Source of the DNA: Verrucomicrobium sp. BvORR106
GTDB taxonomy: Bacteria > Verrucomicrobiota > Verrucomicrobiia > Verrucomicrobiales > Verrucomicrobiaceae
DNA length: 37,201 nucleotides
Direction of reading: 5' to 3'
Assembly: GCF_000739655.1 (NCBI RefSeq)
Contig: NZ_BATR01000045.1
Coordinates: 1 to 37,201, forward strand
Shown here: positions 4,129 to 30,843 of the stretch, piece by piece
Layout of the letters: each line of letters begins with the position of its first letter
Position numbering within the stretch: the stretch's first letter is position 1
Translations under genes and position numbers: made by a program
Notes under the pieces: generated by a model
What the model was told of the DNA's origin: nothing
Database searches by the model: none
Seen by the model: the letters and a program-made list of their open reading frames with translations, nothing else

Positions 4129-4402
4129 TGACGCCAAGGGCGTCATACATGATAGCCCAGGGTAAGGCGAGGCACGAGCCGCCACCCTGGGTACATGGGC
4201 AGGTGAACCAGAACTCCAAAGTGAGTTCTACAAACCGTGATCGCATCCCTGAGGTGTCCACAGCATGCAGGAGGGGCGTCTCCGGGTGATCTGGACGGTC
4301 TGTAGAACTCCCTTGGAGTTCCAATGCTCTCGCATCGATACCCGGGGTGGCGACCGCTTCGCGGTCTGACCCCGGGCTCTTATGTATCACGCCGTTGGCG
4401 TG
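4129..4402 (+). repeat. 274-bp two-arm hairpin repeat, copy 1
   Basis: It is bounded by two short palindromes, TGACGCCAAGGGCGTCA at 4129-4145 and CACGCCGTTGGCGTG at 4388-4402. Between them are stems CCCAGGGT/ACCCTGGG (4156-4163/4184-4191), AGAACTC/GAGTTCT (4210-4216/4223-4229), GAACTCC/GGAGTTC (4305-4311/4315-4321) and CCCGGGGT/ACCCCGGG (4341-4348/4369-4376), the last with an inner GACCGC-TTC-GCGGTC stem. The right half, reverse complemented, aligns with the left half almost without gaps, so the element is an inverted pair of one ~110-bp unit. Copy 2 (6249) has the same orientation and differs at 27 of 274 positions by my count; copy 3 (30004) is inverted. With its flanks it fills the 428-nt gap between recN and hemL. 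It lacks a transposase. Confidence 0.9.
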
Positions 4403-6248: not shown

Positions 6249-6522
6249 TGACGCCAAGGGCGTCATACAAAGTAGCCCAGGGTCAGGCGAGGTGCGAGCC
6301 GCCACCCTGGGTACATGGGCAGATGGGCCAGAACTCCGAAGTGAGTTCTACAAACCGAGGCTGCATCCCTGAGGTGTTTGCCGCATGCGGGAGGGACGTC
6401 TCCGGGTGATCTGGGCGGTCTGTAGAACTCCCTTGGAGTTCCATTGCTATCCCGTCGATACCCGGGGTGGCGACTGCTTCGCGGTCTGACCCCGGGCTGT
6501 TATGTATCACGCCGTTGGCGTG
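6249..6522 (+). repeat. 274-bp two-arm hairpin repeat, copy 2
   Basis: It has the same length and orientation as copy 1, with the same terminal palindromes at 6249-6265 and 6508-6522 and the same internal stems. Most of the 27 differences from copy 1 lie in loops or linkers. One stem change (C to T in the GACCGC stem) keeps pairing as a G-U wobble. The preceding bases (GTGCTC-type or AGTGCTC) are also shared with copy 1. A 75-codon open frame on the minus strand inside it is a by-product of the repeat, not a credible gene. 6523-6656 downstream shows nothing further. Confidence 0.9.
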
Positions 6523-6656
6523 GGGTTTCCGCTATCAAAACACGGGATCAGCCTTCGGCCAGGTTCTATATCTTGTTAACCTGACGCGCATGCGCATGCT
6601 GAACGAGGTGTTGAGGATGGCTGGGGCTTCGGGCGTTCAATTCGCCTGCCTGACTC

Positions 6657-26837: not shown

Positions 26838-27821
26838 TTGGATGTCCGCTTGTGCTCTTTCACCTCCGTCATTGTGTCCTCTCTTCCTGTCACCTCTTCC
26901 TCACCTGCCGCCAGTTGGGCCAGCTGGCTCCAGCTCCATCTGGTGGTGCTGGCGTGGGGTTTCACCGGGCCCTTGGGCCGGCTCATTTCCCTGCCTCCGG
27001 TGGAGACGGTGGCATGGCGCACGGGACTGGCGGCGTTGGGGCTGGCGGTGCTGGCCCGCATCATGAAGGCGGGATTGAATGTGGGAGGTCGCACCGCGCT
27101 GAAGTTGCTGGGCAACGGGCTCCTCGTGGGCGCGCACTGGATGCTCTTCTTCCTTGCGGTCAAACTGGGCAACGTGTCCGTGGCCATGGCGGCACTGCCC
27201 ACCACCATGATCTGGTGTTCCCTCCTCGAACCCCTGTTTGAGAAAGGCCGCCGTATCAGCCGGCTGGAGCTGGGCATGGGCCTGCTCATGGTGCTGGCGG
27301 TGGGGCTGATCTTCCGGGTGGAGTTCGCTTACTGGCAGGGGTTTGCGGCCGGGCTGGGCTGTGCGTTTGTCGGGGCGCTGTTTGCCGTGATCAACAAGCA
27401 CCTGGTGGCGCGGGAGCATTTCGCGGTGATTTCCTGTTACCAAATGGCGGGAGCCTGTGCCGGGGCTCTGGCCGTGCTGGCGATCTCCGGGGCCTCAGGC
27501 CGTCCGGTGGCTCATCCGCAGAACATGGACTGGGTCTGGCTGCTGGTGCTCTCCCAGGTCTGCACCGTGGGAGCCTATGCAGCGTACATGGATGTGCTGC
27601 GACGCCTCTCCGTGTTCTCCATCAACGTGGTGTACAACCTCGAACCTGTGTACGGCATCCTGCTCGCCGCGCTCTTCTTTGGGGACACAGAGCGGATGAG
27701 CCCGGGTTTTTATGTGGGAACGGGCATGATCCTGGTGGCGGTGGTTGTGACACCGTGGTTGCAAGCCAGAGCCCGCTCCGCGGGAGACGCAAGACTTGAA
27801 GACACAAGACGCAAGACCTGA
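26838..27821 (+). CDS. EamA/DMT-family transporter
   Basis: A 327-aa (or shorter) inner-membrane protein with about 10 helices in two EamA repeats; the second ends with INVVYNLEPVYGILLAALFFGDTE, a hallmark of the family (N-L-E-P-V near the penultimate helices). These carry metabolites such as amino acids or nucleotide derivatives; substrate unknown. There is no ATG. TTG 26838 has a purine-rich GTGGGGCGGA just upstream, while GTG 26874 would put the first helix closer to the N-terminus and is equally plausible. It is 14 nt behind the MFS gene. Its last dozen codons are written in an AGAC-type tandem repeat, giving an odd charged tail (ARLEDTRRKT). Confidence 0.88.
   Translation: MDVRLCSFTSVIVSSLPVTSSSPAASWASWLQLHLVVLAWGFTGPLGRLISLPPVETVAWRTGLAALGLAVLARIMKAGLNVGGRTALKLLGNGLLVGAHWMLFFLAVKLGNVSVAMAALPTTMIWCSLLEPLFEKGRRISRLELGMGLLMVLAVGLIFRVEFAYWQGFAAGLGCAFVGALFAVINKHLVAREHFAVISCYQMAGACAGALAVLAISGASGRPVAHPQNMDWVWLLVLSQVCTVGAYAAYMDVLRRLSVFSINVVYNLEPVYGILLAALFFGDTERMSPGFYVGTGMILVAVVVTPWLQARARSAGDARLEDTRRKT
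27785..27821 (+). repeat. AGAC-type 7/8-bp tandem repeat
   Basis: Five units in series, AGACGCA, AGACTTGA, AGACACA, AGACGCA and AGACCTGA, form the very end of the EamA coding sequence including its stop codon. A similar series is found downstream of mgsA at 34368. Confidence 0.6.
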
Positions 27822-27862
27822 GGGGGATGTGGTATCTGGGGTTGTTTGGCAGAGGAGCTTCA

Positions 27863-28245
27863 CCGCTTTTGAGCCAATACCATCAGGGAAAAGGAATATG
27901 CCCCGAGCGCGAATGAGAGACGCTGCGGCACCTCCACTTCACGGTCGGCTGATTGTGCAGACTCATGAGGGCCGAAGGTCCGGCGTGATACCAGCCTTGG
28001 GCAACGCCCAAGGAATAGATGACCAAACAACCCTTGAGGGCTGAAGGCCCGGCCTCATCAAGCCTGCCCACGATGAGCATCCCTGAATGACCTCGGGCCT
28101 ACAGCCCTCAACCTCTAAAACTAACGCCAACCTTGGGCGTTGCCCAAGGCTGGTATTACTCCGGGCTTTCAGCCCTCAGCTCGTTTGTAAAAGGGAAATC
28201 ATCGGCCTGGTTACCTTTTCCCTGATGGCATTGGCGTTTAAGCGG
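27863..28245. repeat. Two-arm hairpin repeat, second family
   Basis: Outer inverted arms (27863-27894 and 28214-28245) match at 27 of 32 positions, including 15 perfect bases CCATCAGGGAAAAGG. Inside is a 213-bp dyad (27966-28178). Each half reads TGAGGGCYGAARGYCCGG, then ATACCAGCC, then the hairpin CCTTGGGCAACGCCCAAGG (27995-28013; complement at 28131-28149), about 20 bp of variable sequence and again a GAGGGCTG.AGGCCC stem. The centre is GATGAGCATC-like. It occupies most of the 468-nt gap between the EamA and GNAT genes. The same inverted two-arm plan as the 274-bp family is seen, but the sequence is different. Confidence 0.85.
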
Positions 28246-28289
28246 TCAGGACGATGGCTAGGTCGCTGAGACATTCTATTGCTGGCCTC

Positions 28290-28769
28290 TCATGAGAACT
28301 CCCGCCGGTATTTCACAAACCCCTGCTTGGTTTCATCGTTGAAACCACAACGGCGGAAGAAGGCGTGGGCTTCGGTTCTGGCCCGGTTGCTCAGGAGCAT
28401 GAGCTTGGTACAGTCGTGCTTCAGCGCCAGTGCCTCGACCTGCGCCATGAGGAGGCGGCCGATTCCCATGCCGCGGTGGGTGGCGGCGATGACCACGTTT
28501 TCCACCACGCCAAACGGTTGCTGCCGGTACATGGCGTCGGCGCAGAGATTCAGGTGCGCCGTGCCGCACACCTTTTGCTCGCATTCGGCTACGAGAAGAA
28601 AACTGCACGAGGACTGTGCGATGTCTGCCAGATGGTCTTCGGACACGCAGAGGTGCGGGTCCCGCACGAGTTCGCGGTAGAGCGACTCCAGCGCGGAGGC
28701 ATCACCTGGCTGGGCCTCCCGGATGATCACGGGTGGGGAGGGAGTGGCATCTACAGGGTCTGGGCTCAC
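28290..28769 (-). CDS. GNAT family N-acetyltransferase
   Basis: A 159-aa cytoplasmic acetyltransferase. The acetyl-CoA-binding motif THRGMGIGRLL is at residues 97-107, preceded by the GVVENVVIA strand, and followed by KLMLLSNRARTEAHAFFRRCGF, the motif B region of GNATs. Acceptor substrate unknown. The start is GTG 28769, which overlaps the stop of the upstream glycosidase gene in the sequence GTGA; this favours translational coupling. A longer frame upstream is antisense or out-of-frame to the glycosidase gene. Confidence 0.88.
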   Translation of the reverse strand: MSPDPVDATPSPPVIIREAQPGDASALESLYRELVRDPHLCVSEDHLADIAQSSCSFLLVAECEQKVCGTAHLNLCADAMYRQQPFGVVENVVIAATHRGMGIGRLLMAQVEALALKHDCTKLMLLSNRARTEAHAFFRRCGFNDETKQGFVKYRREFS

Positions 28770-29872
28770 GGTTTGGCGACGCCGAACAGGGCTTTGAATT
28801 TCGCGGCAGCCTTGGGGAACTGGGTGCCTTCCGGCTTGTCGCTTTTGGCCGGGCCGGGTGAGAGTTGGTGGCGCAGTTCCGGGCTGTTGATGTCGAAGTA
28901 GCAGTGGAAGGCTACGGCATTCACCGGGTCGGTGATGAACGCGTGCATCTGCTCGATGAAGTAGGGGTTGTCGTTGCCGCCGTGGCCATGGTTGCCATTC
29001 ACCACCCCCCATTCAGGAAACGCCAGGGGTTTGCCGTGAGTCTTGGCGAATTTCGTCCAGAAAGCGAGGCCGCGGGGGCTGTGCATGATCCATTCCTCCC
29101 ACACCTTCTTCTGGCGTCGGGTGATTTCCTCGTCCGAGGCATGGGCCGGCCACGGGTAGGTGTCGGCGTTCCAGGTTTCGTCGTACACATCCACGCCGAC
29201 GTAGTCCACATACTCGTCGCCCGGCCAGGCTTCATCTGCGGGGAACTGCTGATCTCCCAGGGTCGGATTCCAGCAGAACTTCAGGCCCTCTGCACCGGGG
29301 ACAGCTCGCATGGTGCTCACGATCTGCCGCCAGTAGCCAATGAACGCGGCCGTCTTGCCTTTGGCGCGCCAGGTGTACCAGTCTCCATTGAACTCCCAGC
29401 CAGGGCGGAGGATGGAGTCTCCCAAGCCGTGGCGAACGAGGTTCTCTGCGAGATCCTTGAAGTGCTGATTGTAAGCGCCCGTCGCACCTTGTTCCAGAGA
29501 AACAGGCACACCTTTCCCCTTGTCACCTTGAGTCGGCCCGCTGCCGTCCACGGGCCCTGCCAACAGGGGAATGGAGAGCACGAAACGTCTCCCTGGCTTA
29601 GCCTTGACCCACGCGGACCAGGTCTCCAGCCACCAGGTGGGCCACCCGACATTGTCCCAGGATTCTCCGCCAACGAAGTCCAGCCCCCACACGGTATCCC
29701 GCCCCAGCCAGGTCGCGAAGGCATCCACGCCTGCGGTGCCGTTGGGCCAGTGGTAAGTGCCCAGGGCAGGCTCGGGAGAGGCCGACTGACTCAAAGCTGA
29801 CTGCATCGGCGACAGCGAGACGATACCGATGAGGAGGGCGGCGAGGGAAAGAGGATGGAACTTTTTCGTCAT
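28766..29872 (-). CDS. Secreted GH26-like glycoside hydrolase
   Basis: A 368-aa exported protein with signal peptide at residues 1-28 (cleaved near ALS-QSAS). The fold looks like a TIM-barrel beta-mannanase or glucanase: ILRPGWEFNGDWYTW around residues 154-168 carries the likely acid/base E160, and PLAFPEWGV around 282-290 carries the likely nucleophile E287. A YVGVDVYDETW strand near 224 fits the barrel. Family GH26 or a close clan-A relative is inferred from these motifs; substrate is not determined, plausibly mannan or mixed glucan. ATG 29872 is chosen for the signal peptide. The gene is followed by an overlapping GNAT gene. Confidence 0.82.
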   Translation of the reverse strand: MTKKFHPLSLAALLIGIVSLSPMQSALSQSASPEPALGTYHWPNGTAGVDAFATWLGRDTVWGLDFVGGESWDNVGWPTWWLETWSAWVKAKPGRRFVLSIPLLAGPVDGSGPTQGDKGKGVPVSLEQGATGAYNQHFKDLAENLVRHGLGDSILRPGWEFNGDWYTWRAKGKTAAFIGYWRQIVSTMRAVPGAEGLKFCWNPTLGDQQFPADEAWPGDEYVDYVGVDVYDETWNADTYPWPAHASDEEITRRQKKVWEEWIMHSPRGLAFWTKFAKTHGKPLAFPEWGVVNGNHGHGGNDNPYFIEQMHAFITDPVNAVAFHCYFDINSPELRHQLSPGPAKSDKPEGTQFPKAAAKFKALFGVAKP

Positions 29873-30003
29873 GGCGGGAGCAGAGGCAGTTGATGGAGCA
29901 TTGCTTATCTCATGAGCCAATCCGTCCCGTCAAGGCGCATGGGAGTCAGAGTGGGATGGGAAGCCAATCTTAGTGGTGAGCGCATGAGTACGATAAAGAA
30001 GCT

Positions 30004-30277
30004 CACGCCAACGGCGTGATACATAAGAGCCCGGGGTCAGACCGCGAAGCGGTCGCCACCCCGGGTATCGATGGGATAGCGTTGGAACTCCAAGGGAGTT
30101 CTACAGACCGTCCAGATCACCAAGAGACGATCCTGTTGCATGCGGTGAACACCTCAGGGATGCGGTCGCGGTTTGTAGAACTCACTTCGGAGTTCTCGTC
30201 CGCCTGACCATGTACCAAGGGTGGCGGCTCGTGCCTCGCCTGACCCTGGGCTGGTATGTATGACGCCCTTGGCGTCA
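30004..30277 (-). repeat. 274-bp two-arm hairpin repeat, copy 3 (inverted)
   Basis: It has exactly the same length as copies 1 and 2 and opposite orientation. The terminal palindromes CACGCCAACGGCGTG (30004-30018) and TGACGCCCTTGGCGTCA (30261-30277) and all internal stems are present. The GC-rich stem-loop near 30030-30070 is intact with its GACCGC-GAA-GCGGTC core. It overlaps the 3' end of the adjacent acetyltransferase gene, from 30154 to 30277. A 63-codon open frame on the plus strand within it has no gene-like character. Confidence 0.9.
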
Positions 30278-30843
30278 AGTGCTCCTGAGTGACGGCGGCA
30301 GCCTGAGGGGCAGTTGTCAGCGAAGGAGAGGCGACGAGAAGTGTTTCCTAAAACCCGACCTTGCACCGGACGGGTCCAGACGTAGAGCACGTCGGGCTGC
30401 TTCTCCTCGTTGTCGCTGCCGTCGGTTTTCCGCTCGATTTGGAAACCGTGTTTCTCATAGAACCGTTGTGCCTGGGCGTTGGTTTGAAAGGTCCAGAGTC
30501 GGAGCTCGGGTGCTTCGCATTGCTCCTTTGCCAGATTCAGGAGGCGCGAGCCGATGCCGCGGCGTTGACGATCCGGATGGACATGGAGTTGCTCCACCCA
30601 ACCAGCGCGGAGCACCAGAAGACCAACCACCTGATGATCCTGCTCGGCCAGCCAGATGACGGAGTGAGGGAACAGCCGGTGACGATAGTGCTCAAGGTCC
30701 TCTTCCGGGGTGTGGAGCACCGGCATCTGAGGCAGTGCTGTGAAGAACGCCAGACGGTGGAGTGATGCCAGAATAGGAAGGTCATCCTCAGTGGCGGGCC
30801 TGAGAGTGGTGGATGAAGGTGGCTTGTTGGCGGGCTCGGGCAT
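30154..30843 (-). CDS. GNAT family N-acetyltransferase with repeat-derived C-terminal tail
   Basis: A 229-aa protein. The GNAT domain covers residues 13-158: TLRPATEDDLPILASLHRLAF, EQLHVHPDRQRRGIGSRLL (acetyl-CoA motif near 92-101), FYEKHGFQIERKT and a final DVLYVWTRP strand. A normal member would stop there. Instead the frame continues about 70 residues; roughly residues 190-229 are encoded inside copy 3 of the 274-bp repeat, which also provides the stop. The tail has a basic, low-complexity look and no family resemblance. The acceptor of the acetyl group is unknown. ATG 30843 is preferred over an upstream start 21 codons earlier. Confidence 0.83.
   Translation of the reverse strand: MPEPANKPPSSTTLRPATEDDLPILASLHRLAFFTALPQMPVLHTPEEDLEHYRHRLFPHSVIWLAEQDHQVVGLLVLRAGWVEQLHVHPDRQRRGIGSRLLNLAKEQCEAPELRLWTFQTNAQAQRFYEKHGFQIERKTDGSDNEEKQPDVLYVWTRPVQGRVLGNTSRRLSFADNCPSGCRRHSGALDAKGVIHTSPGSGEARAATLGTWSGGRELRSEFYKPRPHP

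Follow-up and report, generated by a model that had tools for sequence, protein, structure and literature searches.

Composite extension of a GNAT-family acetyltransferase gene through a spacer and into a repeat element in Verrucomicrobium sp. BvORR106

Our analysis concerns a 37,201-nucleotide stretch of the Verrucomicrobium sp. BvORR106 genome (contig NZ_BATR01000045.1, hereafter the window), in which a GNAT-family acetyltransferase carries a C-terminal tail of composite origin. The stop codon found in the homologues of this gene is missing; the first part of the tail is read through a spacer of 89 nt, and the second part, together with the stop codon actually used, is DNA of a 274-nt repeat element. 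The simplest history, to which we assign a probability of roughly 0.7, is loss of the ancestral stop followed by read-through via the spacer into the adjacent element.

Results

A complete acetyltransferase domain that runs on past its fold

The gene lies on the minus strand at positions 30154 to 30843 and, as judged from the list of open reading frames, the Pfam matches and the translation, encodes 229 aa from its ATG followed by a TGA; an upstream TTG start in the same listing gives 250 aa. Pfam GNAT models match residues 14 to 139 of the 229-aa protein well above their cut-offs, with 61.9 bits for Acetyltransf_7 (cut-off 27) and 61.3 bits for Acetyltransf_1 (cut-off 20.7), and the 12 NCBIfam models listed for the protein all scored below their own cut-offs. 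A structure prediction built on an alignment of six sequences returned a GNAT-like fold, in which strands and helices are predicted with high confidence from residue 13 to 157 (pLDDT 84-96 per 10-residue block over residues 11 to 160). The last predicted strand spans residues 151-157, in agreement with a first-pass annotation made from the sequence alone, which had set the end of the fold at about residue 158. The same annotation had noticed that the frame continues beyond the fold to residue 229, and the translation bears this out, with about 70 residues past the fold.

Pfam, the predicted fold and the end of homology to a gene of Verrucomicrobium sp. BvORR034 together place the complete domain at residues 1-159 (positions 30367 to 30843, minus strand). 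Codon usage over these residues is of the coding type (+0.229 bits per codon), and the alpha/beta fold of the acetyltransferase is, as modeled, complete. With coding-type usage retained and the fold confidently predicted, the suggestion that the gene had decayed into the repeat is not supported. Across tail residues 165 to 229 the pLDDT is below 50. Such low values point to a tail that is most likely disordered, though they owe something to the lack of related sequences for the tail among the six that were aligned.

The tail joins a spacer to element DNA

Downstream of the domain lies the third of the copies of the 274-nt element in the window, at positions 30004 to 30277, in which a short middle separates inverted arms of about 110 nt each. 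The arm nearest the domain, arm L (30169 to 30277, minus strand), begins TGACGCC, and its inner end bears GTAGAACTC on the opposite strand; arm R (30004 to 30114, plus strand) is inverted relative to arm L. Residue 190 is the first whose codon lies wholly within the element, and residues 190-229 (positions 30157 to 30276, minus strand) and the TGA (30154 to 30156, minus strand) are element-borne, much as the first-pass annotation had it in placing the stop and roughly 40 C-terminal residues inside copy 3.

The 89 nt at positions 30278 to 30366 (minus strand), which encode residues 160-188 and most of 189, were assigned outside the element from genome matches, a flank profile and codon scores. 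No second copy of this spacer occurs in the source genome, where the best other match is 17 bases long (E 0.2), and the spacer does not match a profile of the upstream outer flanks of the element family even at E 1000, whereas 31 of 82 other flanks did match that profile, 29 of them at E <= 1; 18 of the matching flanks had gone into building it. We had considered that the whole tail might be element DNA by way of shared outer flanks, and this was ruled out by the lack of a profile match or second copy for the spacer. On the downstream side, the flank of copy 3 weakly resembles that of one other copy (29 bases, 82%), a likeness not borne out by the downstream profile, which it matched only at E 3.1.

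Codon scores are of the non-coding type in both parts of the tail, at -0.375 bits per codon for residues 160-188 and -0.245 for residues 189-229. At this base composition, a stop-free run has a chance of 0.41 for 29 codons and of 0.11 for 70 codons. Since the 29 codons of the spacer would be open by chance this often, it is mainly the missing ancestral stop that needs explaining. The tail is therefore composite by its own makeup, a read-through spacer part followed by an element part, and the element accounts for the last 40 residues and the TGA but not for some 29 residues (160-188) that are not element DNA.

A stop present in the homologues is missing

A search of 68 genomes of the family at E <= 1e-20 found the GNAT protein in 4, and one of 288 genomes of the order at E <= 1e-22 found it in 5, the source genome being counted each time. 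Scanning named genomes yielded two loci, one in BvORR034 and one in a Verrucomicrobia MAG. Five distinct homologues were compared, namely those of BvORR034 (G001), the Verrucomicrobia MAG, G064, G065 and G179, which are 36-58% identical to the window protein. After an invariant Tyr154 they have 6, 6, 10, 10 and 10 residues, against 75 in the window protein; the alignment program set the four C-terminal residues of the most divergent homologue against the far end of the tail, a placement that we take for an alignment artefact. When the element and its arms were compared by BLAST with the homologue loci (3.4-4.5 kb each), nothing was found bar one 18-base match in L063. The tail is absent from all five of these homologues, in whose loci no element was found, which is the pattern to be expected of a host gene extended by a MITE. 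The first-pass annotation had proposed a search for orthologues with a shorter C-terminus, which all five have, and had named a repeat-free orthologue with the same tail of about 70 residues as the case that would speak against it; no such case was found among the five.

DNA similarity to the BvORR034 homologue ends after codon 159, from which point the BvORR034 gene has one codon and a TGA. A stop present in the five homologues is thus missing from the window gene. The same appearance could be produced by an assembly or sequencing artefact, in which an indel near codon 160 hides a real gene that stops within a few codons. A TAG in another frame about six codons past residue 159, found by eye, means that a single-base error would suffice, and the assembly is a 209-contig draft; however, runs of equal bases near the joint never exceed four and the assembly is rated 99.94% complete and 3.09% contaminated, and we regard such an artefact as quite improbable.

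The gene neighborhood and the origin of the extension

The region from 26838 to 30843 is rearranged relative to the corresponding BvORR034 locus (L007), which has the order GNAT-A, GNAT-B, EamA, against EamA, GNAT-A, GH26, element, GNAT-B in the window. Because the two neighboring GNATs are 63% and 58% identical between genomes whose EamA proteins are 90% identical, the GNATs could be evolving fast or have been acquired separately; the BvORR034 gene, at 58% the nearest homologue of the extended protein, is perhaps no strict orthologue. The GH26-like gene next to the element (28766 to 29920, minus strand; identified by Pfam and followed in a genus-genome search) went unmatched at E <= 1e-20 when the three other genus genomes were searched. 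Rearrangement is a plausible cause of the stop loss, given that this gene lacks a genus match and that the order of the GNAT and EamA genes differs from that of BvORR034. Another inverted repeat, with arms of 48 nt that are 90% complementary, lies between EamA and the first GNAT gene at 27966-28178.

In the history that we favor, an ancestral stop located one to a few codons past residue 159 would have been lost by substitution, by a small indel or at a rearrangement breakpoint. Translation would then continue across the 89 nt of non-element DNA into the adjacent element, entered in the frame that offers 40 open codons and then TGA, and the element would serve as a ready-made backstop. The order of these events, first stop loss and then reading on, is one that we infer from sequence comparison; the stop may have gone by local mutation or in a rearrangement by which the GH26-like gene arrived as well. 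Telling against this history are the possible fast change or separate gain of the GNAT genes, and the spacer, which could be newly arrived DNA and not the old 3' flank.

The first-pass annotation had offered a different origin, in which insertion of the element removed the original stop. Since the element begins 89 nt further on, insertion of the 274 nt alone did not replace the old stop, unless the spacer came along; homology to BvORR034 already ends at codon 159, and the spacer has neither a second copy nor a profile match. The first-pass annotation was right that the C-terminal 40 residues and the stop codon come from the repeat; neither of the origins that it proposed, insertion and decay, finds support in that form. 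A modified form of the insertion proposal is a single event in which the element and a carried spacer, perhaps together with the GH26-like gene, were joined to the gene at codon 159 with deletion of the stop. The break in similarity at precisely this codon, the unmatched GH26-like neighbor, the rearranged gene order and the extended outer flanks that are present on some copies of the element are all consistent with such an event, but the spacer neither matches the outer-flank profile, as other flanks do, nor has a second copy in the genome. We consider the single event unlikely, and retain stop loss followed by read-through as the preferred reading.

The 274-nt element and its link to a Y1 transposase

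Comparison of repeats within the window and a search of the source genome placed copies 1 and 2 of the element on the plus strand at 4129 to 4402 and 6249 to 6522; copy 3 is 92% complementary to 4129-4402, and 29999-30277 is 89% complementary to 6249-6527. The source-genome search listed 58 matches to the repeat, with 40 of 93 candidates scored and some matches representing one copy on both strands. Copies also occur in two other genomes of the genus, BvORR034 and G003, and none was found in G002, a genome that is 76% complete. Of the 106 copies or pieces that we took from the three genomes (52 from the source genome, 34 from BvORR034 and 20 from G003), 56 are full length; the copies are dispersed, lack a transposase and have inverted arms. 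The motif GTAGAACTC occurs in arm L of 53 and in arm R of 38 of the 56 full copies, in a unit of 274 nt with long arms. A match to GGGGWSAS is found in 39 of the 56 on one strand and in 2 of the 56 on the other, alongside long terminal inverted repeats (TIRs). The RNA of the element folds as a single long hairpin (z -9.6), and Rfam gave no match at gathering scores across the window. Downstream of the GNAT stop, a pattern scan marked an end hairpin followed by a T-rich tail, resembling a terminator, at 30003 to 30019 (minus strand), a weak signal with 2 sites against 0.9 expected. Outside the element, for example around 6249-6522, a further degenerate repeat turns up (E <= 1) in 29 of the 82 upstream flanks and in 29 of the 74 downstream ones, with GCGCATGCGCGTCAGGTTAA on one side of the element and its mirror image on the other, an arrangement that suggests a larger composite.

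Arms of this family also flank a transposase gene. Pfam PF01797 (Y1 transposase) had 77 matches over four genus genomes, and at 2 of the 30 loci examined arm L is present on both sides of the transposase gene with 79-82% identity. The first (L117, in the source genome on C106) is a unit of 742 bp at 1330-2071 with an open reading frame at 1486-1941 that encodes 151 aa and scores 84 bits against Y1_Tnp; the second (L105, in BvORR034 on C69) is a unit of 745 bp at 1326-2070 with a Y1 transposase reading frame between inverted arms. These units are likely the source or partner of the 274-nt family, and because the same arms flank the Y1 transposase in both, the element is best read as a transposase-less form of a putative Y1 (RAYT-type) unit.

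An open frame that is standard for the family

The frame used by the GNAT gene is open in the element family at large: a consensus built from the remaining 55 full copies shows no stop for 40 codons when read in that frame and then reaches the same TGA, which is found at this place in 48 of the 56 full copies. Copy 3 differs from the consensus at 9 places in the part that is read, distributed over codon positions as 2, 2 and 5. At codon 12 of the element frame, 32 of the 56 copies have TCA, 23 have TAA and 1 has TTA, and a TAA here would cut the tail by 29 residues. Because the consensus is already open for 40 codons and its TGA is so widely shared, no selection on the tail is needed to account for it, and the one genome with the tail gives no signal of it, copy 3 being open in the same frame as the consensus. 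That the tail has been recruited, as an aid to solubility, for partner binding or as a degradation tag, has a single point in its favor, the open and uninterrupted frame of copy 3; the family consensus being open in the same frame, the codon usage of non-coding type and the predicted disorder argue against it, and recruitment seems to us extremely improbable. The tail, which from the gene sequence is presumably made in the cell, is most likely near neutral, as we infer from the same observations.

Nearly all readings of the element meet a stop. For one other frame entered from the GNAT side, 48 of the 56 copies have a stop at their very first codon, and for one frame entered from the opposite side, 52 of the 56 stop at base 14; over six frames and 56 full copies, 323 of 336 readings stop inside the element and 13 pass through. 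From such figures one could picture the family as providing gene ends with a portable backstop for translation, acting on both sides and in nearly every frame. Were this true, the end hairpins could also terminate transcription, and host genes that lose their stops would gain the same 40-codon tail, a shared short tail that could later be recruited. We surveyed 159 ends of the 106 copies or pieces fetched from the three genomes. Frames that run into the element after 60 or more codons outside it made up 63 rows, 6 of them with a positive codon score. When these six were scanned with Pfam, the GNAT gene alone was above cut-off, and the proposal that copies of the element often cap host genes was not borne out. 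With so few genes running into the element, a backstop role is unlikely to be common, and as a general property of the family we hold it to be very improbable.

Among the other five frames, one in G003 (L158, 1460-2338, minus strand) encodes 292 aa, of which the last four residues and the stop come from an element copy; it has no Pfam match, and its end resembles a PEP-CTERM signal. Another frame in the same genome (L168, 987-1283) matches Pur_ac_phosph_N at 17.2 bits, below the cut-off of 30, and runs into an element arm; it is possibly the start of a purple acid phosphatase, perhaps of a gene broken by the element. The frames at L145, L160 and L190 had no Pfam match at E <= 0.01.

Discussion

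Extension of a protein into repeat DNA is a type of event that is already known, with like outcomes published for Coxiella, enterobacteria and REP-rich genomes, and the case reported here is no new class. Several close parallels are on record. In Coxiella burnetii Dugway, an indel links enhC to the neighboring QMITE2 element, which presumably supplies the last 33 residues; the stop follows immediately downstream of the QMITE2 residues, and in another strain the gene stops before the element (PMC5896051). As in that account, the GNAT gene is joined to a neighboring MITE-type repeat that supplies its C-terminal residues. The element family is a different one, however, and in the GNAT gene an 89-nt spacer is translated as well; the enhC indel was seen from two strains, whereas the GNAT gene is compared with homologues that are at most 58% identical. 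A second parallel, as summarized in the repeat-unit literature of Delihas, is the LivJ fusion, in which part of an acyltransferase motif is followed by a 106-aa spacer and a C-terminus from RU-3 (PMC2759123; PMC2229807). Both proteins join an N-terminal part of acyltransferase type, a spacer and a C-terminus from a small mobile repeat, but only positions 1-45 of LivJ match the acyltransferase motif, whereas the GNAT domain of the window is complete. The palindromic elements of Rickettsia (RPE), described as in-frame insertions in genes (PMC2229807, PMC10969869), are alike in that palindromic repeat DNA is translated within conserved proteins; the element of the GNAT gene, in contrast, lies beyond the domain and is reached via a missing stop.

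The element itself invites comparison with GTAG REPs, RAYTs and TIRtrons, for which PMC3733652 describes inverted repeats around a Y1 transposase, GTAG at the hairpin and dispersed transposase-less copies. The same source reports that REP termini often give flanking reading frames their stop codon, that GTAG repeats are known from the verrucomicrobium O. terrae, that in a GTAG REP the tetranucleotide marks one end of a short palindrome of 20-40 bp, and that the TIR family of the TIRYT transposases has long TIRs, some with the motif GGGGWSAS. The 274-nt family is like these systems in its inverted arms around a Y1 transposase, its transposase-less copies and its supply of stops. Unlike the REPs and TIRtrons described there, its arms measure about 110 nt and carry both the motif found at the inner end of arm L and GGGGWSAS (the latter in 39 of 56 copies, on one strand). 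By these features the element appears to mix those of GTAG REPs with those of TIR-flanked transposases. V. spinosum is not named in the main text of PMC3733652, and in the portions of that paper covered by our narrow literature search no description of the 274-nt family was found.

In summary, the GNAT gene offers a clean example of the way in which a protein may gain a tail from mobile DNA, in which an intact enzyme, a missing stop, a spacer and a ready-made frame can each be told apart. The repeat that provides this frame belongs to Verrucomicrobium-like genomes, and its tie, on the reading preferred above, to a Y1 transposase offers a starting point for understanding its spread.
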